This document shows, piece after piece, positions 2,613-50,369 of a stretch of 64,000 nucleotides of DNA. The position numbers were made by a program, and so were the translations under genes. The notes under the pieces were generated by a model. The model worked only from the letters and a program-made list of their open reading frames with translations. It had not been told where the DNA came from and did no database searches. The stretch spans positions 1-64,000 of the forward strand of contig NZ_AOCN01000012.1 of assembly GCF_000350525.1 (NCBI RefSeq), in the 5' to 3' direction. The stretch is from Leucobacter salsicius M1-8. GTDB lineage: Bacteria; Actinomycetota; Actinomycetes; Actinomycetales; Microbacteriaceae. Numbering within the stretch: position 1 is the stretch's first letter; every line of letters begins with the position of its first letter.

Positions 2613-3095
2613 ATGTCAGTTCTACGTGCCCTCCCCTCGGCTCTGTTCGACCTGAAGCCTCGCCGGTTCGTCGTCGCCATCTTCGCGATCGGCGCTTTGC
2701 TTCTGTGCGCCTTCCTCATGCACGCTTTCGGGCATGGTCAGAGCCATGAGAGTATGCCGACCGCGGCATCCACGGTGCACGTCGAGGCTGCCGCTGGAAG
2801 CCATTCAACACTGGTCGCCGCCAGTCACGGTACCCAAACTTCAATAGTCCAATCTGATGGAGTCTCGGGTCTTAGCGGCGCGTGCAGTGCGGGCTGCGGC
2901 GGATCTGACGCGATACAGATCGCCTGCATACTCGCGTTTCTGAGCACCGTTGTGTTCTTCGTTTTCTTCCTCCCCCGTCTTTTGTCAATGAACCAAAGGC
3001 TTCGTGAGCGTGCGATAGAAATCGTCGTGAGCGTGCGGGCTGGTCCTCGCCCGATGACGCCGTCGCCACAGGAACTTTCCATTAGCCGAACTTGA
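2613..3095 (+). CDS. Small membrane protein, DUF6153-like, of the copper cluster
   Basis: 160 residues with an N-terminal transmembrane segment (about residues 18-36), a His/Ser-rich extracytoplasmic loop containing GHGQSHESM and a Cys pair (ACSAGC), then a second transmembrane segment (CILAFLSTVVFFVFFLP) and a basic tail. The ATG at 2613 follows GGAGAGGTG at 2600-2607; a longer frame opens at 2460 but lacks a ribosome site. The His/Cys-rich loop and position suggest metal handling outside the membrane. Family assignment is from general resemblance. The interval 2285-2612 would hold divergent promoters for this gene and the SHOCT-oxidase pair; no regulator gene is nearby. Confidence 0.6.
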   Translation: MSVLRALPSALFDLKPRRFVVAIFAIGALLLCAFLMHAFGHGQSHESMPTAASTVHVEAAAGSHSTLVAASHGTQTSIVQSDGVSGLSGACSAGCGGSDAIQIACILAFLSTVVFFVFFLPRLLSMNQRLRERAIEIVVSVRAGPRPMTPSPQELSISRT

Positions 3096-3174
3096 TCGGC
3101 CTTCTGAGGTTGCGCCACGTGCGCGCCGCCTCAATTCGCCGACCCCAAAATTCTCCGACCCTTTGGAAAGACTC

Positions 3175-3771
3175 ATGAAACTCCGAACACTTTTCGTTAT
3201 CCCTGGCATCCTCGCAGCTGGTCTGGTCCTGGCCGGATGCTCGACTGGCCCTGTCGAGTCGCCACCGTCTCAGTCCCCAACTGCACCGTCCGTGACTGAA
3301 GACTTCAACTCCGCTGACGTGATGTTCGCACAGATGATGGTGCCTCACCACGTACAGGCCGTGGAGATGTCCGACGTGATCCTCGCGAAGGATGGGATCG
3401 ATCCTCGGGTCATCTCCCTCGCCGAAGAGATCAAGGCGGCTCAACAGCCTGAAATCGACGCACTCAATGGCATGCTCGAATCGTGGGGCATGCCCCAGGC
3501 TTCGACGGACGGCATGGATATGGGTCACGGCGACCAAATGGATGGCATGATGACCGAGGAAGACATGGCCGCACTCGACGCCGCGACAGGGACAGAAGCA
3601 AGCCGACTGTTCCTTGAGCAGATGATCGTTCACCACGAGGGCGCGGTCGAAATGGCGCAAATCGAGGTTGACTCGGGGACGAACCCGGATGCAGTGGCGA
3701 CGGCACAAGCCATCATCGACGCTCAGAATATCGAGATCGAGACAATGCGCGAGATCCTCCAGAGCCTTTAG
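3175..3771 (+). CDS. DUF305 copper-binding lipoprotein
   Basis: 198 residues. A lipoprotein signal ends in the lipobox LAGC near residue 22. Two helical repeats follow, each with the family signature: FAQMMVPHHVQAVEMSD and FLEQMIVHHEGAVEMAQ, separated by a Met/His-rich linker (GMDMGHGDQMDGMM). DUF305 proteins bind copper through these HH/Met motifs at the outer face of the membrane. ATG at 3175 is preceded by GGAAAG; the TTG at 3163 has no support. It sits between the copper oxidase and CueP genes. Confidence 0.85.
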   Translation: MKLRTLFVIPGILAAGLVLAGCSTGPVESPPSQSPTAPSVTEDFNSADVMFAQMMVPHHVQAVEMSDVILAKDGIDPRVISLAEEIKAAQQPEIDALNGMLESWGMPQASTDGMDMGHGDQMDGMMTEEDMAALDAATGTEASRLFLEQMIVHHEGAVEMAQIEVDSGTNPDAVATAQAIIDAQNIEIETMREILQSL

Positions 3772-4577: not shown

Positions 4578-6839
4578 ATGAAGCAACAACCAAACCACGA
4601 CCATCACGGCCACCACCCGTCTGATGACCACGACCACGGTCGGCCGGACACGCCGATCGAGCACGCCATTCACGGTGATCGGGGCGTTCAACACTCGAAT
4701 GGACACGCAAACCTCGGCATGCACGCCGAGCACGCCGTCGCGGGCAGCCGGGATCCCCATGGAGATCACGATGCTCGCTCGGGTCATGGAAACGGCTCAG
4801 AGGGACATGATGCCCATGCTGACCATGATCCGGGTGCACATGCGGGGCACAGCGTGTCGATGTTCCGTAACCGGTTCTGGGTGACTCTCGTTCTTTCAAT
4901 TCCAGTGGTCGCGTTCAGCCACATGATCGGGATGATCTTCGGCTACGATCTGCCCGAGACCGGCTGGACGACATGGATTGCCCCTGTTCTGGGCACGGTC
5001 ATTTTCTTCTACGGCGGTATGCCGTTTCTGAAGGGCGCGTTGCGGGAGATTACGCTCCGACAGCCGGGGATGATGCTGCTCATCGCGATGGCAATCACGG
5101 TCGCGTTCCTCGCGTCGTGGGTCACGTCGCTTGGTGCCGGTCTCGATCTTGATTTCTGGTGGGAGCTCGCCCTGCTGGTGGTCATCATGCTGCTGGGTCA
5201 CTGGCTTGAAATGCGCGCACTCGGTGGGGCATCAAGTGCCCTCGATGCGCTAGCGGCATTGCTGCCCGATACCGCCGAGTTGGTCCATGAAGACGGGGCC
5301 GTGGAACAGGTCCCGAGTGCCGATGTCAGCGCCGGTGACCTCGTGCTCGTGCGTGCGGGAGGACGCGTTCCGGCCGACGGCACTGTCGAATCCGGATTCG
5401 CGGACATGGATGAGTCTATGGTTACGGGCGAGTCGGCGTCCGTTTCCCGAGCCGTTGGCGATACCGTCACCGCGGGCACCGTTGCCACTGACTCAGCAAT
5501 CCAAGTGCGCGTGACCGCGGTAGGCGAGAACACAGCACTGGCTGGCATCCGTCGACTCGTGGCGGACGCGCAAGCATCCTCGACTCGGGCCCAAGCCCTC
5601 GCCGATCGCGCAGCGGCTCTGCTGTTCTACTTCGCCGTCGCGGCCGCCGTGATCACCGTAGTGGTATGGCTCATCGTCGGCAGCCCTGCCGACGCCATTA
5701 CCCGCGCGGTGACGGTGCTGATCATCGCCTGCCCGCACGCACTCGGGCTCGCGATTCCTTTGGTGATCTCGATCGCGACAGAGCGGGCTGCCCGCGCTGG
5801 CGTTTTGGTGAAGGACCGGTTGGCGCTGGAACGGATGCGCAGCATCGACGTGGTGATGTTTGACAAGACCGGCACTCTCACGGAGGGACGCCACGCCGTT
5901 GCAGCAGCCACAGCCGTTCCGGGCACCGACCCTCAGCGCGTGTTTCGGCTGGCTGCCGCGGCGGAATCACCGAGTGAGCACCCTGTTGCTCGCGCGATCG
6001 TCGCATGGGCAAACGAACACAGCGACGGGTTGCCGATTCCACCGATCTCCGAGTTCCGCTCCGAGCCGGGTGTCGGAGTTTCAGGAACCGTCGATGGCGC
6101 CGAGGTTCGCGTTGGTGGGCCCCGGCTCCTCGCCGCACTCAACCTGTCCGTGCCCGAACGCATCCAGGCCGAGGTCACCGATTGGGAATCGACCGGGTCG
6201 AGCGTCCTGTTCGCGGTCATCAACGGCCGCGTCGAGGGGGCATTCTCGCTTGAGGACGTCATTCGCCCCGAATCGCGTGCCGCCATTGATGAACTGCACC
6301 GTCGTGGCATCCGGGTTGGCATGATCACTGGTGACGCACAACAGGTTGCGGACGCGGTCGCAACCGATCTCGGTATCGACGAAGTGTTCGCAGGAGTTCT
6401 CCCCGGGGACAAGTCCGCCAAGGTCGCTGAACTGCAGGAGCGTGGCTTCAAGGTTGCGATGGTTGGCGACGGGGTGAACGATGCCCCTGCTCTTGCTCGC
6501 GCAGACGTGGGTGTTGCAATCGGCGCGGGTACCGACGTCGCGATCGAGTCGGCGGGCGTCGTTCTGGTGTCGAGCGACCCGCGTGCCGTGCTGAGCGCGA
6601 TCGAGCTTTCACACGCCTCCTACCGGAAGATGGTGCAAAACCTCGTTTGGGCGACCGCGTACAACGCCATCTCGGTACCGCTGGCCGCTGGTGTGCTCGC
6701 TCCCATCGGCTTCAACCTGCCACCGGCCGCCGCCGCAGTGTTGATGTCGCTGTCCACGATCATCGTTGCCCTGAACGCCCAGTTACTCCGCCGCCACGAG
6801 CTGAACCCGGAGATACTGGCACCAGTGCATACTGCCTAG
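4578..6839 (+). CDS. CopB-type copper-exporting P1B-ATPase
   Basis: 753 residues. The first ~95 are extremely His/Asp-rich instead of a CxxC metal domain. The membrane metal site is CPH ([13 protein letters not shown], near residue 384), diagnostic of the P1B-3/CopB subgroup. Also present are the phosphorylation site DKTGTLTEG near 428, the nucleotide-site SEHPVARAI and the hinge [17 protein letters not shown] lies in the actuator domain. The protein exports copper at ATP cost from the inner membrane and completes the oxidase/DUF305/CueP set. A 97-base gap with no clear hairpin separates it from cueP, so they may be cotranscribed. Intact. Confidence 0.92.
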
Positions 6840-6956
6840 CTGTACCAAACCGCTGACCGATCAAGGTGGCCCAGCAACTCCACCCAGGTCGAGCCTGTGC
6901 TCGCAATGGTCTTGCTACCGGCCGAAGGGACAACGACGCTTCCGATTCGTCAAGTC

Positions 6957-9900
6957 TCACAAACGGAGGCCGCGCGTTTCCCGCACCCGTTCCCGTTCGT
7001 GCTCTTGAGTTCGAGGGGCACGAGCAGCTCTTATGACTCGGAGAGCGGCTTCCGCACGAGCGTGATCGACCTTCTGCGTTGTGGAATCGGGCGAGGCTCC
7101 GAATATCGCGGCACTCGTGATCTGATATCGGTCGCGGTAGGCGGCGATCACGGACGCTGCACGATACCAGGCGGCGGCGCACTGCGGGTCTGCGGGCTCG
7201 GCACCGAGAGCTGCAATCCATGGCGCCGAGTCAGCGACCGCGGTGTTAAGAACTACATCGACTCGCTCCTCGATGAGGTCACGCCGTTCATCGAGTGCCT
7301 GACGCATGTCATCAGCGACCGGTCCCATTGCTTCGGGTACGAGCCCGGCAATGAGCCTCGGCGCCCCGCGTGTGCGTCCCGCTCCGGCAGGGCGCGCTGT
7401 AGCAGTGGTGAGCCGATGCCGCAGCACCGCAGCGATGTCATCCGCGTCAGCGAAGTCGCGTGCTCGCACCAGACGTGGGAGCAGAACCGCGAGGTCATGG
7501 TGGTTGGCTTCCGCACGGCGCAGCTCGGCGGCCAGAGGGCCGAACGCATCCGACTCGATCACTTCCGCAGCTTGCTCAGCGCCGAGACCAGACGCACGCA
7601 CCAGAGCAGCCCACCGATCACGCTGCGCCGCCGCGGCAATCGTCTCGTATTCAGCAGCGAGCTGCGCGATCGTCCCCCAAGATTCTTGTTCGACGGCGAT
7701 CGTTTCATGCGCGGAGAGTTCAGCACCAACGTGCTGCAGCACTCCGGCGAGAACGCTGCGGCCGGTGACTTCGTCGTTCTCGCCAGGATGTGGTCCATCG
7801 TGAGAAGTGTCAGGCCTATCGACGGCGACATAGGCGACGTTGGCGTCACGACCCCGAGTCATCGCCACGTAGAGGTGCTCCCGAGTCATGGTCGAGTCGA
7901 CGAGCACGTGGGCAGTGTCGGTGGTGAGACCTTGCGCACGGAAGGACGTCACGGCGTAGCCAAGTTCGACGTGCTCCGCTGCATAATCAGCTGGTAGAAG
8001 TACGCTGGTCCCCCGAGAGTTTCCAGCGCGTCGAGCAAGCATCGATCCATCGCGTCGAACGTCGATGACGTTCCAGCGATCTCCGTTGCGCACCCAACCG
8101 CGCCCTGCCAGTAGACGACGGTCGTTGCGGCGCGTGATGACGATGTCACCGGATGCCGCATGCGTCCCGTCATGCAGCTCGGATTCACGCGACCCGTGAA
8201 CGGTGCCGTCGAGGATCAGATCGGTACGCGCTCGGTTGTTGAGTGCGGTCACCGATTCATTGGAGTCTGAGACGAGAACCGTTGCGCGCCCCGCGACGAG
8301 ATCGCTGCGCCAGGAGGCGTACGCCGCATCGATCATTTCCTCAGTGTCTCCGTCAACGATGCGTTGCTGCTCGTCGTAGATGTCAATGACTTCAGTGTGT
8401 CCATGCCGGAGGTCGAGTGACGCGCGCTTTTCCCAGTCGTGCGCGAACCGGTGAACGTCGACAAGTTCGGGCACGTCATCACGATCGTGCGTGAGCATCC
8501 CGAAGGCGCCGCCTGCGTCGACCGCCTGGAGCTGTGCGTAGTCGCCGACGAGTAGCACTTTCGCCCCGGCCTCTGCGGCAAGCTGAGTGATTCGGTCCAG
8601 GGAGAGCGTTCCAGCAAGCGACGCTTCATCGACGATGACGAGCTGGCCCTGCTGGAATGTCTCACCTTCTCGCAGGTGATTCTGCCACCACTTCGCCGTG
8701 TTCTCCGTGGCGATCCCAAGATCCTCGGCAAGCACTTGTGCCGCACTCGACGACGGTGCCAGTCCGACAACGGATCCTTGGCCGTGTTCCTTTTCCCAGA
8801 CCCGGCGTAGTGCGTTCATCGCGGTCGTTTTCCCGGCACCAGCTGGGCCGACGAGCAAGTCAACGACACGACCTGAGACGGCGATCTCCGTCAGCGCCGT
8901 TGCTTGGTCCTCCCCCAGCACCAAGCCCTCGCGGTCAGGCTTCCGTGTGACGCGTTCGACCGTCTCCAGAGATACCGTCGGTCCCGTCGTTGTGTGCGCG
9001 AGCTGAAGCAGTCGCTCCTCGGCATCGAGCAGCTGACCGGATGAGAACACCGTGGAGTTCTTCGGCCGGAACACCGACGATTCATCGCTCCTGCGAAAGA
9101 CGGCAGGACTGGATGCCAGTTCGGGCGGCGTGAGTCGAATCGACACAGCCTCAGCAGCAGCCACAACCATGCCGATGATCGCCTCACGATCACGCGTACT
9201 GGCGAACCGGTACCTCATCGTCTGCCGGGCAGCCTCGGCAGTGAGATTCCAGCGGCGCCATGTCGAACGCTTTTCCCCGACTGTGGCTACGACGCTCTCC
9301 CCCAGCCCACGAACTACATCCAGCGGCAGGTCATCGGCGCGCAGGAGCAACGGCGTCTGGTTCGCGGTGACCTCACGTGCCCAGCCGGTTGCATCGACAC
9401 CAAGGATGTTGCCCGCCCGTTGCCTCCACTGAGCGGTGAGGTCAGCAAGCGAATGGATCTCCTTCTTTGGTCTTGTGGCGAGCGTCGCCTGGGCACGCAG
9501 TTTGATGATCGTCGCACTGGAAGGTTGCCTGCCGTGCTTCTCGACGTACGCAGCGATAAGGCGATCCTTCTCCTCGTTGATATGCCGCGAACGTGACGAG
9601 AACTCGGACACGAGTTGTTCAGGGACCTTCGCGATAGCCCATGCCACATTGCGGTCCCGTCCCCGATCCCGCGTTTCCCACTCAACCCCGAAGAGTCTCG
9701 TGAGGTGATCAGCGAACACCGCCTCGTGAAACTCTGAGAGCGCCACCGTCGCAGCGTGCAGGGGGCGCCCGTCCAAGCTTCGCCACTTGTCGTCGAGCAC
9801 GGTCTGCACCTTGTTACTGATGACGACGTGCGTGTGAAGATGGGGATCGCCCGCACGCGAGTCATAGTGGTCATAGGCTGTTGCGATCAACCCACGCACC

Positions 9901-38279: not shown

Positions 38280-39790
38280 GCCACGTTGATGCCGAACGCC
38301 TGCACACGTCGGTCCTCGTCGCTCCAGCATCTGAGAAGCGGCGCGTGCGCAGGCAGCGCAGTCAGGCTGCCGCGAAGTTACAGGCTGAGCAGCAGCAGTC
38401 GGAGCGAAAGGCCGCCCGCGCAAAGTACGCCGCCGAACTGGCAGAACGTCGGGCCGCCACGTATCTCCCGGCAGCTGGAGAGCTTGGCACTGCCCAGCTG
38501 CGTTCTTCCGGAAAGCTTCGCCTACCGCGGCATCAAGACACGTCGGCAACCCTCGCTGGCGCGTACCCATTCCTAGCCGAAGGCGGCCTCGGACCTGACG
38601 GGGTTTTCGTTGGTCAGGACCTGTACTCTGGTGGGTCCTTCGTCTACGACCCATGGGTGCTCTACGCACGCGGCCTCATCACCGCGCCAAACCTCGTGCT
38701 CGCGGGCATCGTCGGTTCCGGAAAATCCAGTCTGGCCAAAAGCCTCTACACACGATCGCTCCCGTTCGGCCGTCGTGTCTACGTTCCTGGCGATCCGAAG
38801 GGTGAGCACACTGCGGTAGCCGAAGCCGTCGGCGGCAAAGCAATCGTGCTCGGTCACGGACTCTCTACCCGGCTGAATCCTCTCGACGAGGGCTATCGGC
38901 CCACAGGTATGAGTGAGGAGAGCTGGTCAGCCACCGTCTCCGCGCGACGACGCGATCTGATCGGTGCACTCGCGGAGACAGTTCTGACGCGACCTCTCAC
39001 TCCGCTGGAACACACGTCGATCGATACAGCGCTGACTGAGGTCGTACGCAGCAACGATGTACCGATCCTTCCGATGGTCGTCGACCACATCCTTGCCCCG
39101 ACCTCGGAAGCGGATCTCGATGGGCGTCTCGCCGAAGACGGACGTCTCGTTGGGCACGCACTGCGGCGGTTAGTCTCGGGTGATCTCGCCGGGCTCTTCG
39201 ATGGCCCGTCGACCGTCACATTCGATCCGACGCTGCCGATGATCTCGCTTGATCTGTCACGGGTGACGGAGAACTCGACGCTGATGTCGGTGCTCATGAC
39301 GTGCTCGTCGGCCTGGATGGAGTCCGCGCTGCTCGACCAGAACGGCGGCCAGCGCTGGTGTATCTATGACGAAGCATGGCGTCTCATGTCTCATCCGGCG
39401 TTGCTGCGACGCATGGATGCTCACTGGCGGCTGGCGAGGCACTACGGAATCGCGAACATGCTCATTTTCCATAAGCTGACCGATCTGGAGAACGTCGGAG
39501 ATCAAGGATCCGCAATGCGAGCTCTGGCCAATAGCCTGCTCGCGAACGCCGAAACGCGGATCATCTACCGCCAGGAGTCCGACCAGCTCGGAGCCACGGC
39601 GAAAGCACTTGGACTAACCGGCACCGAGCAGAAGCTCCTGCCCGGGCTCGGTGTGGGCCAAGGACTTTGGCGCATCAAGGACCGTTCCTTCGTATGCCAG
39701 CACCAACTGCATCCCGGGGAACTGGAACTCTTCGATACCACCACCAGGATGACTGGCGACTCCCGTAAGTTCACGATTCGTGAACCCTGA
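38276..39790 (+). CDS. VirB4-like ATPase of the mating channel
   Basis: 504 residues from the ATG overlapping the previous stop. Walker A GIVGSGKSSLAKSL, Walker B region RWCIYDEAWRLM and the adjacent LLRRMDAHWRLARHYG (arginine-bearing helix) fit VirB4/TraC ATPases. The N-terminus is a charged helix (RQRSQAAAKLQAEQQQSERK). It would power channel assembly and substrate passage. The operon is broken straight after this gene: the coupling protein expected next is 16.7 kb away at 57000. Confidence 0.87.
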   Translation: MSHVDAERLHTSVLVAPASEKRRVRRQRSQAAAKLQAEQQQSERKAARAKYAAELAERRAATYLPAAGELGTAQLRSSGKLRLPRHQDTSATLAGAYPFLAEGGLGPDGVFVGQDLYSGGSFVYDPWVLYARGLITAPNLVLAGIVGSGKSSLAKSLYTRSLPFGRRVYVPGDPKGEHTAVAEAVGGKAIVLGHGLSTRLNPLDEGYRPTGMSEESWSATVSARRRDLIGALAETVLTRPLTPLEHTSIDTALTEVVRSNDVPILPMVVDHILAPTSEADLDGRLAEDGRLVGHALRRLVSGDLAGLFDGPSTVTFDPTLPMISLDLSRVTENSTLMSVLMTCSSAWMESALLDQNGGQRWCIYDEAWRLMSHPALLRRMDAHWRLARHYGIANMLIFHKLTDLENVGDQGSAMRALANSLLANAETRIIYRQESDQLGATAKALGLTGTEQKLLPGLGVGQGLWRIKDRSFVCQHQLHPGELELFDTTTRMTGDSRKFTIREP

Positions 39791-39798
39791 AATGGTGG

Positions 39799-39847
39799 GA
39801 ACTCACGGGTCCAGGTGCTGTTTCAGCGTATCTGGACCCGTGAGTTC
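39799..39847. terminator. Perfect 16-bp inverted repeat between convergent genes
   Basis: GAACTCACGGGTCCAG pairs perfectly with CTGGACCCGTGAGTTC around a 17-base loop, in the 64-base gap between the VirB4 gene and the oppositely directed fusion gene. It can serve both strands as a terminator, although T-runs are absent. It also marks the left edge of the metal island. Confidence 0.65.
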
Positions 39848-39854
39848 GTGCGGG

Positions 39855-41801
39855 TCAGGCTGGGGTCGCGGCGAGGCGGTTTTGCGCTTCCCATGCCTGG
39901 GTCGCGACCTGGACGGCGTCCCATGGGGAGCCGAGGGGTGGGGTGTAGGAGAGGTCGAGTTCGGTGATCTGCTCGATGGTGAGCCCGGCGTAGAGGGCGG
40001 TGGCGTAGGTGTCGACGCGTTTGGCGACCTCGGTGCCGCGCCTGCCGACGAGTTGCGCGCCGAGCAATCGGCCATCGCGGGTGTTGCCGGTGATGCGGAA
40101 GTGGATGGGGTGCGCGCCGGGGTAGTACCGCTTGTGATCGTCGGCCGCCGCCGCGATCGTCGAGGGCGTGTATCCGGCGGCGATCGCCTCGTGATCGCGC
40201 AGGCCGGTGCGGGCGGCGACGAGGTCGAAGACTTTGACGACCTGGGTGCCGACGGAGCCTTGGAAGGCCCGGTTGCCGCCGAGCGCGTTCTCTCCGGCGA
40301 TGCGGCCCTGCTTGTGGCTCGTGGTACCCAAGGGCAGGTACGTCTGGCCCAGGAGGCGGTGGTGGGTGATGATGCCGTCGCCGGCGGCCCATACGTGCGG
40401 GAGCCCGGTGCGCATGTGCTCGTCGACGACCACGGCGCGTCCCGCGCCGAGGCGTGCCCCGGCCCGTTCGAGCAGTTCGGTGTTCGGCCGGACACCGACG
40501 ACGACGAGGACGAGGTCCGTGGTCTGCGTGAATGGCTGGCCGGCGCGGGTGCCGGTGACGGTGAGGCCGGCCGGGGTCTTCTCGATGCCGGTGACGGTCG
40601 TGCCGGTGACGACCTCGACCCCATGCGTGGTGAGCTCGTCGTGGACGAGGGTGCCGAGTTCGGGGTCGAGGGTGGAGAGCACTTCGGGGCCGCGTTGAAG
40701 CTGGGTGACCGTCATGTCGCGGGTGATGAAGGCTTCGGCCATCTCAAGGCCGACGTAGCCGGCGCCGACGATGATCGCGGACTGCGGCTGCCGCGCGGTG
40801 AGGTCGTGGTCGAGGGCGAAGGTGTCGCCCATCGAGTGGATGACATGCACCCCGTCTACCGGGGTGAGCTGGTCGAGGCCGGCGATGCCAGCGTGGGACG
40901 GGAGGGCACCGGTGCCGACGATCAGTTCGTCGTAGCCGATGTCTTCGGTGCGGCCGTCAGGGGTGCGGACGGTGAGGCGCCGCCCTGCGACGTCGATGTC
41001 CGTGGCGAAGGTGTTGAGCCGCAGGCTCATCCCGGTCGCTTCCAGGTCGGCGGCGGTGCGGTGCGCGAGCGACTGCCACGGCTGGACTTCGCCGGTGAAG
41101 TAGTAGGGGATGCCGCAGATGGAGAAGTTCGGATACTCATCCGCCACCACCACGGTCACGTCGGTGCTGGGGTCGAGTTCGCGGGCGCGGAGGGCGGCGG
41201 AGATGCCGGCGAAGGTGTCGGTGAAGATCCGGCCGATCGTCACGGCCTGGTTGGCGAATGACGTGGAGGAGGTGAACCAGTACGCGGCGCCGATGTAGGC
41301 GCCGACCGCGGGGGCGACCAGGGCGCTGCGGCCGGTGCGGGCGAGGGCGAAGATCAGCAGGACGAGGCCTGCGGTGGCGACGACATCGCCGAGCAGATGC
41401 CCTGCCGAGAACCGATCCGTCGTGGCGATCGTCGTCGGGGCGTCGAACATCAGGTTCGCCAGCACCGCCCCGCCGATCCCTCCGGCGATCTGCGCGACGA
41501 GGTACGCGGTGATCTCGGTCGGCCGGTGTCGGGTGCCGAGGAGCCGGTCGGCGAGGGTGACGACCGGGTTGAAGTGCGCCCCGCTGACGGGCTGGAAGAT
41601 CAGGATGAGCACGGTCAGGCCGAGCGCGGTCGCCAGCGAGTTCTCCAGCAACTGCAGGCCGACGTCATCTGGCGAGAGTTGCTGGGCGGCGATGCCGGAG
41701 CCGACCACGACGGTCACCAGCAGTCCGGTGCCGAGGAACTCGGCGATCGCGCGCCGCCACAGCGGCGAGGAGGTCGATCTTGCGCTTGTTTCGTGGTTCA
41801 C
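39855..41801 (-). CDS. Aquaporin - FAD/NAD oxidoreductase in-frame fusion
   Basis: 648 residues from a GTG at 41801, apparently leaderless. Residues 1-200 are an aquaporin/glyceroporin with the first box as NPV (78-80) and the second box as NQA (184-186) where NPA is usual; the last helix is missing. At about 198-203 the chain passes directly into a pyridine-nucleotide disulphide oxidoreductase (SAALRARELDPSTDV, SICGIPYY, NAD fold IIVGAGYVGLEMAEAF). That enzyme has lost its own N-terminal FAD GxGxxG segment. Both parents occur as separate genes in arsenic operons, so an in-frame deletion joining them is the simplest explanation. Function of the product is doubtful. Divergent from the ArsR-ArsC gene. 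Confidence 0.85.
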   Translation of the reverse strand: MNHETSARSTSSPLWRRAIAEFLGTGLLVTVVVGSGIAAQQLSPDDVGLQLLENSLATALGLTVLILIFQPVSGAHFNPVVTLADRLLGTRHRPTEITAYLVAQIAGGIGGAVLANLMFDAPTTIATTDRFSAGHLLGDVVATAGLVLLIFALARTGRSALVAPAVGAYIGAAYWFTSSTSFANQAVTIGRIFTDTFAGISAALRARELDPSTDVTVVVADEYPNFSICGIPYYFTGEVQPWQSLAHRTAADLEATGMSLRLNTFATDIDVAGRRLTVRTPDGRTEDIGYDELIVGTGALPSHAGIAGLDQLTPVDGVHVIHSMGDTFALDHDLTARQPQSAIIVGAGYVGLEMAEAFITRDMTVTQLQRGPEVLSTLDPELGTLVHDELTTHGVEVVTGTTVTGIEKTPAGLTVTGTRAGQPFTQTTDLVLVVVGVRPNTELLERAGARLGAGRAVVVDEHMRTGLPHVWAAGDGIITHHRLLGQTYLPLGTTSHKQGRIAGENALGGNRAFQGSVGTQVVKVFDLVAARTGLRDHEAIAAGYTPSTIAAAADDHKRYYPGAHPIHFRITGNTRDGRLLGAQLVGRRGTEVAKRVDTYATALYAGLTIEQITELDLSYTPPLGSPWDAVQVATQAWEAQNRLAATPA

Positions 41802-41841: not shown

Positions 41842-42516
41842 AACATTGAGCGAACTGACTTGACGGGGCGAGTGGCGCGGTATGCGGCGCTGGCCGATCC
41901 GGTGCGACTGCGGATCATGGACCTACTGACCCTGGGCGATGTCGCCCCGGTCGAGCTGCAAGCCGGGCTGGGAATCTCGTCCAGCTTGCTCGCGCATCAC
42001 CTGAACCAGCTCGAGCACGCCGGATTCCTGGTGCGCACTCGGTCTGAGGCCGACCGGCGCCGCACCTACCTGCACCTCGCCCCCGACGCGTTCTCGGGGC
42101 TGACCCCGTCGCCGGGGCTCGGGGTGCGGCGGGTGGTGTTCGTCTGCACCGGCAACTCCGCCCGCTCCCAGCTCGCCGCCGCCCTCTGGCACGACGCCAG
42201 CGACATCCCGGCAGCCTCGGCCGGCACCCACCCGGCAAACGCCATCGAGCCCGGCGCGATCGCCGCCGCGAACCGGCACGGCCTCACCCTCCGCGCCACC
42301 CGGCCGCGCGCACTGGAGGACGTGGCCGAGGCGGACGACTTCGTGGTCACCGTCTGCGACACCGCCCACGAAGAACTCGCCGGCACGGGCGGGGTGCACT
42401 GGTCCGTGCCTGACCCCGTGCGCGACGGGTCCGATGCTGCATTCGATGCGGCCTTCGAAGACATCGCCGACCGCATCCAGAGCCTCGCCCCGAGACTGAC
42501 CACCACCAAAGGATGA
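41839..42516 (+). CDS. ArsR repressor fused to ArsC-type arsenate reductase
   Basis: 225 residues. Residues 1-90 are an ArsR winged helix (ADPVRLRIMDLLTLGD, LGISSSLLAHHLNQLEHAGF). Residues ~95-225 are a low-molecular-weight phosphatase-fold reductase with the CxxxxxR loop VFVCTGNSARSQ and later VTVCDTAHEE. It lacks the helical spacer seen in the second fusion at 49368-50369, and the Cys pair of that repressor is absent. Known actinobacterial ArsRC fusions sense arsenic and reduce arsenate. Translation starts at 41839, with no good ribosome site. Confidence 0.82.
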   Translation: MNIERTDLTGRVARYAALADPVRLRIMDLLTLGDVAPVELQAGLGISSSLLAHHLNQLEHAGFLVRTRSEADRRRTYLHLAPDAFSGLTPSPGLGVRRVVFVCTGNSARSQLAAALWHDASDIPAASAGTHPANAIEPGAIAAANRHGLTLRATRPRALEDVAEADDFVVTVCDTAHEELAGTGGVHWSVPDPVRDGSDAAFDAAFEDIADRIQSLAPRLTTTKG

Positions 42517-42642: not shown

Positions 42643-43555
42643 TTACATCGTCAGTGCGGGCAACGGTTCAGTGACAGCGTAGTACGCCGCTTCAACCTCT
42701 GCAGGGGTACGCATATCAAGCTCCCCGTGAAGGCGTTCGTTGTTCCACCACCACACATATTCCAACGTCGCAAGCTCGACCTGCTCGACCGTTTTCCAAG
42801 GCCCCTGCTGCCTGATCAATTCGGCTTTGTAGAGCGCGTTCACTGCTTCAGCCATCGAATTGTCGTAGCTATCGCCGACTGTCCCGGTTGACGGGATCCG
42901 CGCCGAGCTCTGCGACCCGGTTGGTGTAGACCATCGACATATAATTCGAGCCGTGGTCGCTGTGATGCACCAACCCCTCGAGATCACCACCGGCCTGCCA
43001 GGCCGCCATCTCAAGCGCTTGCAACGGCAATACCTCGGCCTTGAGTGTTGAAGCGACATTCCAGCCGACGATTCTGCGCGAGTACACGTCGGTCACGAAC
43101 GATACGTACGCGAACCCAGACCACGTCGCAACATAGGTGATGTCGACGACCCACAACCGCTTCGGTGCTGCCGCAGTGAAGTTCCGATTCACGAGATCAC
43201 CTGGCAGCCGGTCCGCCGGGTCGCTCTTCGTGGTGAATGCCCGTTTCGAGCGTTGCACGCCGCGTACTCCAGCGATCTTCATGAGCCGCTCGCAGGCGTC
43301 ACGGCCAATTTCCCAGCCCTCACGCCGCAATAGGGCATGCATTTTGCGGCGACCATACACGCCGTAATGCTTGTGGTGGAGGCGCGTGATCTCCGGGATG
43401 AGGATCTCATCACGGAGGTGCCTAGCTGAAGGCAGCCGGTTCCTCGCTGCCCGATACCCGCGTGAGGTGAGGAAACCACGGACTGCCGCACGTAGCGTGC
43501 GGCAGAGGAACTCGACCCCGAAACGATCACGATACTTATCGATGAATCGGATCAT
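42643..43555 (-). pseudogene. IS3 transposase orfB, frameshifted
   Basis: The DDE integrase core reads VVDITYVATWSGFAYVSF (first Asp) and LVHHSDHGSNYMSMVY (second Asp) in one frame. It then needs a one-base shift near 42898 to reach IPSTGTVGDSYDNSMAEAVN with the catalytic Glu. Removing one G from the run gives a continuous VAELGAIPSTGTVGDSYDN. The start codon overlaps the orfA stop (ATGA). Because the shift lies between the second Asp and the Glu, no active transposase is expected. Confidence 0.85.
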
Positions 43556-43866
43556 TTCGATCGTGGCCGGTCGAGTTCCTGCGCGAAAAATATGCTCGCA
43601 GCTTTGAGAACTTCATTCGCTTTCCGAAGCTCCGCATTCTCGCGGCGCAACCGACGGTTCTCTTCATTCATATCGGTGGTGACACCGGGCTTCGCGCCAG
43701 CGTCGACCTGGGTTTGGCGATGCCAGACGCGAAGCGTGTCGGGCGAGACTCCAAGGAGCCCGCCGATGTGTTTACTCGCCGCATGAAGACTTGCGTGTTC
43801 GGGTAGAGCTTCGGTGAGCATGCGGAGGGCGCGCTCACGGAACTCGGGTTCGTATTTCTTGGCCAT
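43552..43866 (-). CDS. IS3 transposase orfA
   Basis: 104 residues: HTH domain KKYEPEFRERALRMLTEAL and SPDTLRVWHRQTQVDAG, followed by a leucine-zipper helix ENRRLRRENAELRKANEVLK. Typical of IS3-group OrfA proteins that bind the IS ends. Intact, but its OrfB partner is frameshifted. Confidence 0.87.
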   Translation of the reverse strand: MAKKYEPEFRERALRMLTEALPEHASLHAASKHIGGLLGVSPDTLRVWHRQTQVDAGAKPGVTTDMNEENRRLRRENAELRKANEVLKAASIFFAQELDRPRSK

Positions 43867-47957: not shown

Positions 47958-48277
47958 GTATCGTCAACGTCACCGATGACACCTTTGAACACGAAGTGCT
48001 CCAGTCAGGTCTCCCTGTTGTTGTCGACATCTGGGCGACCTGGTGCGGCCCGTGCAAGGCGATCGCACCAGTGCTTGAAGACTTAGCAGCCGAGTTTTCG
48101 GGCCAAGTGAAGATTGTCAAAGTTGATGCGGATGCGAATCCTGCCACCGTATCTGCGGCGGGTGTCATTTCGATTCCGACCCTCGGTTTTTACCAGGCTG
48201 GAGAGCGAGTCGATGTGCTTATCGGGGCACACCCAAGACCAGTTATCGCGGCAAAGATTAAGGAATTGCTCTCGTGA
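47954..48277 (+). CDS. trxA: Thioredoxin of the arsenic operon
   Basis: 107 residues with the active site [13 protein letters not shown] and the cis-proline [10 protein letters not shown]. Standard length. It receives electrons from the adjacent reductase and reduces the arsenate reductases downstream. Start overlaps the trxB stop; end overlaps the GTG of acr3. Confidence 0.93.
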
Positions 48278-49371
48278 CGAATACCTTGGCAACTCCGTCG
48301 CGGGTGACACCCAAGCGCATGTCGGCTCTCGACAAGTGGCTCGCAGTCTGGATCGGGCTAGCCATGATCGTAGGCCTCCTGCTCGGCCGTTTCATCCCCG
48401 GCCTCTCCGAACTCTTGACACGACTTGAGGTTGGTGGCATCTCCGTGCCCATCGCACTCGGGCTACTCGTCATGATGTACCCCGTGCTCGCGAAGGTCCG
48501 CTACGACAAAGTCGCAGCAGTCACCGGGGACAAAAAGCTGCTCATTTCATCGCTCGTGCTTAACTGGCTCGTCGGCCCTGCGCTTATGTTCACCCTTGCA
48601 TGGATCTTCCTCGCGGATCTCCCCGAGTATCGCACCGGTGTCATCATCGTTGGGCTTGCTCGCTGTATCGCGATGGTCGTGATTTGGAACGACCTGGCAT
48701 GCGGTGACGGCGACGCAACCGCGGTACTGATCGCGGTGAACTCAGTGTTCCAGGTCGTCATGTTCTCCGTGCTCGGCTGGTTCTACCTCACGGTACTCCC
48801 CGGCTGGCTCGGCCTCGACACTCAGGGCCTCGACGTTTCGGTGTGGCAGATCGCGCTCAATGTGCTGGTTTTCCTGGGCGTCCCACTGCTTGCAGGGTTT
48901 ATGTCGCGGTGGGTCGGCGAGAAGCGTCGCGGCCGCGAATGGTACGAAGCGAAGTTCCTCCCGAGGATAGGCCCGTGGGCGCTCTACGGCCTGCTCTTCA
49001 CCATCGTGCTGCTCTTCGCGTTCCAGGGCGAAGCAATCACAAATAACCCGCTTGATGTTGCTCGTATCGCGGTGCCACTGCTCGCATACTTCGCCATTAT
49101 GTGGTTTGTCGGCATGATCGCTGGTAAAGCGATCGGTCTCGGCTATGCCCGATCCACGTCCCTTGCGTTCACCGCAGCAGGCAATAACTTTGAGCTCGCG
49201 ATCGCAGTCGCAATCGGCACGTTCGGTGCTGCCTCTGGCCAGGCGCTCGCGGGTGTGGTCGGCCCCCTCATTGAAGTGCCGGTGCTCGTCGGCCTGGTGT
49301 ACGTCTCCCTGTGGCTGGCGAGAGTTTGGTTTAAGACTGACCCATACGCGACTGAAACGAGCAAGTCATGA
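48274..49371 (+). CDS. acr3: Acr3-type arsenite efflux pump
   Basis: 365 residues from a GTG overlapping the trxA stop. About ten transmembrane helices; conserved LIGLARCIAMV-like segment here IIVGLARCIAMVVIWNDLA with the essential Cys, and the later TAAGNNFELAIAVAIGTFG. Acr3 pumps arsenite out by proton motive force. The N-terminus ALDKWLAVWIGLAMIVGLLL is that of the Acr3(2) group. Overlaps the ArsR-ArsC fusion by ATGA. Confidence 0.92.
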   Translation: MTNTLATPSRVTPKRMSALDKWLAVWIGLAMIVGLLLGRFIPGLSELLTRLEVGGISVPIALGLLVMMYPVLAKVRYDKVAAVTGDKKLLISSLVLNWLVGPALMFTLAWIFLADLPEYRTGVIIVGLARCIAMVVIWNDLACGDGDATAVLIAVNSVFQVVMFSVLGWFYLTVLPGWLGLDTQGLDVSVWQIALNVLVFLGVPLLAGFMSRWVGEKRRGREWYEAKFLPRIGPWALYGLLFTIVLLFAFQGEAITNNPLDVARIAVPLLAYFAIMWFVGMIAGKAIGLGYARSTSLAFTAAGNNFELAIAVAIGTFGAASGQALAGVVGPLIEVPVLVGLVYVSLWLARVWFKTDPYATETSKS

Positions 49372-50369
49372 TCCCGGACACCGCGCTCCGCAACCCAGAA
49401 ATATGCACACCTACAGTGGAGCACGCGATGGGAGCTGCAGCCGCTTCCTCTGTCGCAACCACACTCAAGGCGCTCGCTGAGCCACTCCGCCTGCGAATGC
49501 TCTCTGCCATCGCCACAGACCCCCGCGGTGAAGCGTGCGTGTGCGATCTTGCTGAGCTTACTGACGTGTCGCAGCCCACGGTGTCTCACCATCTGAAAGT
49601 CATGAAGGACGCTGGGTTGCTCGCCTCAGAACGTCGTGGCACCTGGGTCTGGTATCGAGTCGTCGCATCTCGCAAAAATGCTGTCACCGCGCTGCTAGAT
49701 TCCTTTGCACCGGCGACCCTCCTTGAAGATGTTGAGAGCGAACAGGATCGCACTGTCGCGCTGCGCACTATGGATGCTCGCGTTACGCGGCTCGCGGATG
49801 AACTGGCCGACGAACTTTCCGAGTTGAATCGCGACCTGGTAACCGCGATCGTACGGGAATCGTATGCGGGTCTCGTCAGGTCTGCGAAACTTACCCAACA
49901 CATGATTCCCCTCACTGAACGCTTCGCGAGACAACGTCTTGCTGACCTGATGCGTGACCGTGAGACTTCTGTTCCGCAGGTGCTGTTCGTATGTGTTGCG
50001 AATGCCGGGCGTTCGCAGCTCGCGGCAGCCCTCATGAATCAGTTGTCGGGTGGCACCGTTATCGCTCGCTCGGCCGGATCGAACCCAGCTGTCGATGTGC
50101 ACCCGAGTGTACGTTCGCTCCTCACAGAAATTGAGGGTGACAAAGATGCGACAACAGCATTTCCAAAGCCACTCACCGATGACGCGGTGCGTGCCGCAGA
50201 CGTCGTCATCACCATGGGCTGCGGTGATGTCTGCCCCATCATTCCCGGTGTGCGCTACGAGGATTGGGCAGTGGGAGACCCTGCACTCGCCTCTGATGAC
50301 GGTGCCAAAGCGATCCGCGACGACCTCGCCACCCGCGTACACACATTGCTTGACACGCTCACCACATAA
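49368..50369 (+). CDS. ArsR - three-helix spacer - ArsC fusion
   Basis: 333 residues. Residues ~25-110 form ArsR, with arsenic ligands in EACVCDLAEL and recognition helix DVSQPTVSHHLKVMK. A helical spacer (~120-200) resembles the three-helix bundle found with actinobacterial phosphatase-type reductases. The C-terminal ArsC has VLFVCVANAGRSQ and ITMGCGDVCPIIPG, keeping all catalytic cysteines. It is both regulator and enzyme. Different in build from the 41839-42516 fusion, so independently acquired. Confidence 0.87.
   Translation: MIPDTALRNPEICTPTVEHAMGAAAASSVATTLKALAEPLRLRMLSAIATDPRGEACVCDLAELTDVSQPTVSHHLKVMKDAGLLASERRGTWVWYRVVASRKNAVTALLDSFAPATLLEDVESEQDRTVALRTMDARVTRLADELADELSELNRDLVTAIVRESYAGLVRSAKLTQHMIPLTERFARQRLADLMRDRETSVPQVLFVCVANAGRSQLAAALMNQLSGGTVIARSAGSNPAVDVHPSVRSLLTEIEGDKDATTAFPKPLTDDAVRAADVVITMGCGDVCPIIPGVRYEDWAVGDPALASDDGAKAIRDDLATRVHTLLDTLTT

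Follow-up and report, generated by a model that had tools for sequence, protein, structure and literature searches.

Our analysis indicates that the open reading frame of 648 codons in which an aquaporin runs into a CoA-disulfide-reductase-like flavoenzyme is very probably the result of a recent, lineage-specific deletion of 143 bp spanning the border between two neighbouring genes of actinobacterial ars clusters. It lies in a stretch of 64,000 nucleotides from Leucobacter salsicius M1-8 (hereafter the window) and translates as one uninterrupted frame from position 41801 down to 39855, the in-frame joining of aquaporin to reductase that a preliminary description of this DNA had reported. The joint is also as described there, with TDTFAGI ending at residue 200 and SAALRAREL directly after it. 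The parts of the fused frame are:

39855-41801, minus strand: fused ORF, aquaporin plus CoA-disulfide-reductase-like flavoenzyme, 648 aa (direct translation, uninterrupted)
41202-41801, minus strand: aquaporin (MIP) half, residues 1-200, five TM helices and loop E with NQA
39855-41201, minus strand: flavoenzyme half, residues 201-648 plus stop (Pfam, TIGR03385 and comparison with 67 intact loci)
41202-41211, minus strand: deletion junction, where a single copy of the 10-bp repeat CGCCGGCATC is left (compared at base level with five intact relatives)
41244-41252, minus strand: second NPA box, reading NQA (Pro185 to Gln, codon CAG; alignment of 91 sequences)

The intact gene pair and what the fusion has lost

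More than 120 homologous loci were gathered by a scan of species-representative genomes together with genus- and family-wide searches. The two genes are adjacent in 67 distinct loci, and direct translation gives separate ORFs in all 67; in every one of them the aquaporin extends at least 25 residues beyond the position of the joint, and the N-terminal FAD loop of the reductase is present (IGGSDAG; MTHLIAIGGSDAG in relatives). The fused ORF lacks this loop, as the preliminary description had stated. Homologues with intact full-length domains, whose existence in number had been named beforehand as grounds for giving up the fusion, are therefore many, and they occur as separate genes, which speaks against the fusion reading. 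In relatives on plasmids, too, a FAD-dependent oxidoreductase and a MIP/aquaporin are annotated as two genes. In 18 of the 67 loci, the closest relatives among them, the aquaporin stop and the reductase start share a four-base ATGA overlap, so that in these closest relatives aquaporin and reductase are read in different frames. Candidate natural fusions among the relatives (e.g. G058 and G367, with a long common frame) were rejected, since the count behind them had read through stops and translation yields two ORFs. The pair itself, an aquaporin with a CoA-disulfide-reductase-like flavoprotein, is conserved in actinobacteria (positions 5985-8084 of locus L006 and 66 other distinct loci).

Both domains are truncated at the joint, since the match of the fused ORF to MIP (PF00230; 80.8 bits, cut-off 25) covers only positions 3-171 of the 222 in the profile and that to Pyr_redox_2 (PF07992) begins at profile position 10. 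On the channel side, about 34 residues including the last hydrophobic segment have been lost, plus the stop codon. The final helix that had been called missing is segment 208-226 of the intact homologue L007, which by hydropathy and alignment is absent from the fusion; of the six TM helices of an aquaporin, helix 6 has thus been deleted. The replacement of NPA by NQA in the second box is equally real, the proline being present in 89 of 91 aligned homologues. The first box reads NPV, shared with most of the family; with NQA as the second, the channel does not have two NPA-type boxes. A close relative, the L106 aquaporin (2868-3533, minus strand), carries NLA as its second box in a channel that is otherwise intact. 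Given this example, NQA may be a separate change and not necessarily a consequence of the deletion, and the second-box proline may be relaxed in this clade.

On the enzyme side, the start codon, the first strand and the FAD loop are gone relative to relatives, and the translation retains the active-site Cys (SICGIPYY) and the second GxGxxG, the NAD(P)H Rossmann loop (VGAGYVGLEMAE). This half matches TIGR03385 (CoA-disulfide reductase) over profile positions 8-438 of 439 with 313.5 bits, below the equivalog cut-off of 578.8; the intact homologue also falls under this cut-off (322.4 bits).

Origin and spread of the junction

Base-level comparison shows that exactly 143 bp are missing from the window relative to L006, L009, L010 and L011, and 146 bp relative to L008. 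Since the frames differ in the closest relatives, a loss of 143 bp brings the two genes into phase. In L006, L009 and L011 the missing piece is bounded at both ends by CGCCGGCATC, with one copy in each parent gene and a single copy in the window; this is the Gly-Ile region common to both parents that had been put forward as microhomology. The deletion probably arose by replication slippage or short-homology recombination between these 10-bp direct repeats. Shared strings of at least 10 bp appear in 26 of 100 shuffles, a 10-bp repeat being statistically ordinary in this GC-rich DNA; because such matches are common by chance, the repeat fits this mechanism and does not prove it.

The junction was searched for as a degenerate pattern in 132 fetched loci, in viral contigs and in 396 sampled genomes of the order. 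The preliminary description had proposed looking for it in other genomes; the search returned one of the 132 loci and one of the 396 genomes, each of them the window's own, and none of the viral contigs. Leucobacter sp. wl10 has a near-identical cassette, with a single mismatch over 1298 bp on one side and full identity over 39758-40844 on the other. In wl10 the locus is interrupted in both copies at the same points, 41308 and 40844, and the intervening piece is absent from the assembly. As this unassembled gap covers the spot of the junction, wl10 might share the deletion. The wl10 contigs (L142-L145) represent two divergent copies of the locus with the same two homologous breakpoints and identical contig ends, which suggests that the middle part underwent gene conversion or was collapsed in assembly. 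The near-identity with wl10 stops sharply at 39758 and 42605, near both limits of the arsR-arsC/aquaporin-reductase unit, as though recombination had moved this cassette by itself.

The breaks in both wl10 copies show that this region can cause difficulty in assembly, and this lends some weight to an assembly artefact, in which the organism would carry both genes intact and contig ends would have been merged across the short repeat by an assembler or gap-closer. However, the shared 10 bp fall short of the overlap that assemblers usually need, and no second copy was found in the window's own genome, so there is no repeat to force a collapse; an error of this kind is therefore unlikely. The joint is moreover in frame, a one-in-three chance, and the window sequence is continuous across both sides without N.

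Fate of the fused product and its genomic setting

The remainder of the fused frame is well preserved. Window-only changes at conserved sites number 2 and 3 in the two halves, within the control range, and pairwise dN/dS is ordinary in both. The absence of excess decay in the remainder of either half points to a recent deletion. An open frame of 648 codons without excess decay is nevertheless to be expected of a functional fusion and of a recent deletion alike.

Without helix 6 and the second-NPA proline an aquaporin should not form a channel, and without the FAD loop a flavoprotein of the CoA-disulfide reductase-like family should not hold FAD. With helix 6 lost and loop E altered, the fusion would not be expected to give a working channel, nor, with the first Rossmann strand and the FAD loop lost, a working reductase. 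In the aquaporin topology loop E is extracellular, so that with helix 6 lost the enzyme remnant would begin outside the cell, away from its cofactors. Structure models of the fusion and of an intact homologue, built from shallow alignments, were of low confidence (pLDDT 40 and 56) and too poor to bear on folding. The fused protein is most likely dead.

The preliminary description left two readings side by side. A non-functional deletion product formed at microhomology is well supported, whereas a novel membrane-tethered fusion of channel and redox enzyme, selected as such, is unsupported and in our view very improbable. Its attractions are the preserved open frame without excess decay, the possibility that the near-identical wl10 cassette might carry the same junction, and the occurrence of channel-enzyme fusions in ars clusters (AqpS-ArsC, cited in PMC6205960). 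Against it, the fusion has lost the C-terminal part of the channel and the FAD loop, essential elements kept in 67 of 67 homologous loci, the NPA proline is altered as well, the junction is absent from all other sequences examined, and from the topology the enzyme would be expected to lie on the wrong side of the membrane. No more credible is a residual role for one half, for example a truncated channel acting as a subunit that poisons other aquaporins, or a reductase fragment translated from an internal start codon: both remnants are conserved in sequence, but an internal start could not restore the first Rossmann strand and such a truncation occurs in no relative. We would give equally little credence to a working five-helix membrane-anchored protein, spread among Leucobacter strains including wl10, whose remnant has taken on a new, FAD-independent role.

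Besides the deletion product, the window holds other arsenic genes:

41842-42516, plus strand: ArsR-ArsC (LMWPc) fusion gene, divergent from and adjoining the fused ORF, an ars regulator/arsenate reductase (Pfam HTH_5/HTH_20 and LMWPc)
48274-49371, plus strand: Acr3 arsenite efflux pump (TIGR00832, 432.7 bits, cut-off 282.8; PF01758)

ArsR-ArsC fusions are already known, and a second gene of this type follows immediately after acr3 (49368-50369). An IS3-type transposase in overlapping frames (42643-43866) adjoins the ars genes. The genome has three Acr3 arsenite pump genes, one of them within the window, and two other aquaporins. As these remain, the loss of the channel and the reductase is probably tolerated by the cell and plausibly neutral.

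On this reading the locus illustrates, in an ordinary way, how genes of a resistance cluster are lost when a small deletion between short repeats takes out their boundary. In practice it serves as a warning, since automated annotation could call a novel aquaporin-oxidoreductase fusion here. The locus also brings to notice a conserved, little-described pair of aquaporin and CoA-disulfide-reductase-like enzyme in actinobacterial ars clusters; a literature search for the role of this enzyme in arsenic handling found no description.

Comparison with known systems

The separate ars pairs of Compostimonas suwonensis (L006), Microbacterium (L007 and L010) and Leucobacter weissii (L008) comprise the same genes in the same order as the fusion, and the closest of them share 86-87% protein identity with its channel and 90-91% with its enzyme. 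The pair of L006 adjoins the same divergent ArsR-ArsC as the fusion does. They differ in having two intact genes, often with the ATGA overlap, a channel with six helices and both NPA-type boxes, and an enzyme whose FAD domain is complete. The best solved relatives of the intact homologous enzyme are CoA-disulfide/CoA-persulfide reductases and NADH oxidases (PDB 8a56, 6ruz and 3cgb); compared with these, the window copy keeps the active-site Cys and the NAD(P)H Rossmann domain and is without the FAD loop.

AqpS-ArsC of Salinispora tropica, an aquaporin-ArsC fusion, is reported to reduce arsenate and export arsenite (Wu, Song and Beitz 2010, cited through PMC6205960). It resembles the fused ORF of the window in that an aquaporin and an enzyme share one frame in the context of arsenic, but its partner is an arsenate reductase and its channel works, whereas the partner in the window is a flavoprotein and helix 6 and the FAD loop have been lost. 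A functional fusion of the AqpS-ArsC type would join a complete channel to a complete enzyme; both domains of the ORF in the window are incomplete. The ORF lacks what defines a complete aquaporin and what defines a complete enzyme of the flavoprotein family, and is best classed as a deletion product.
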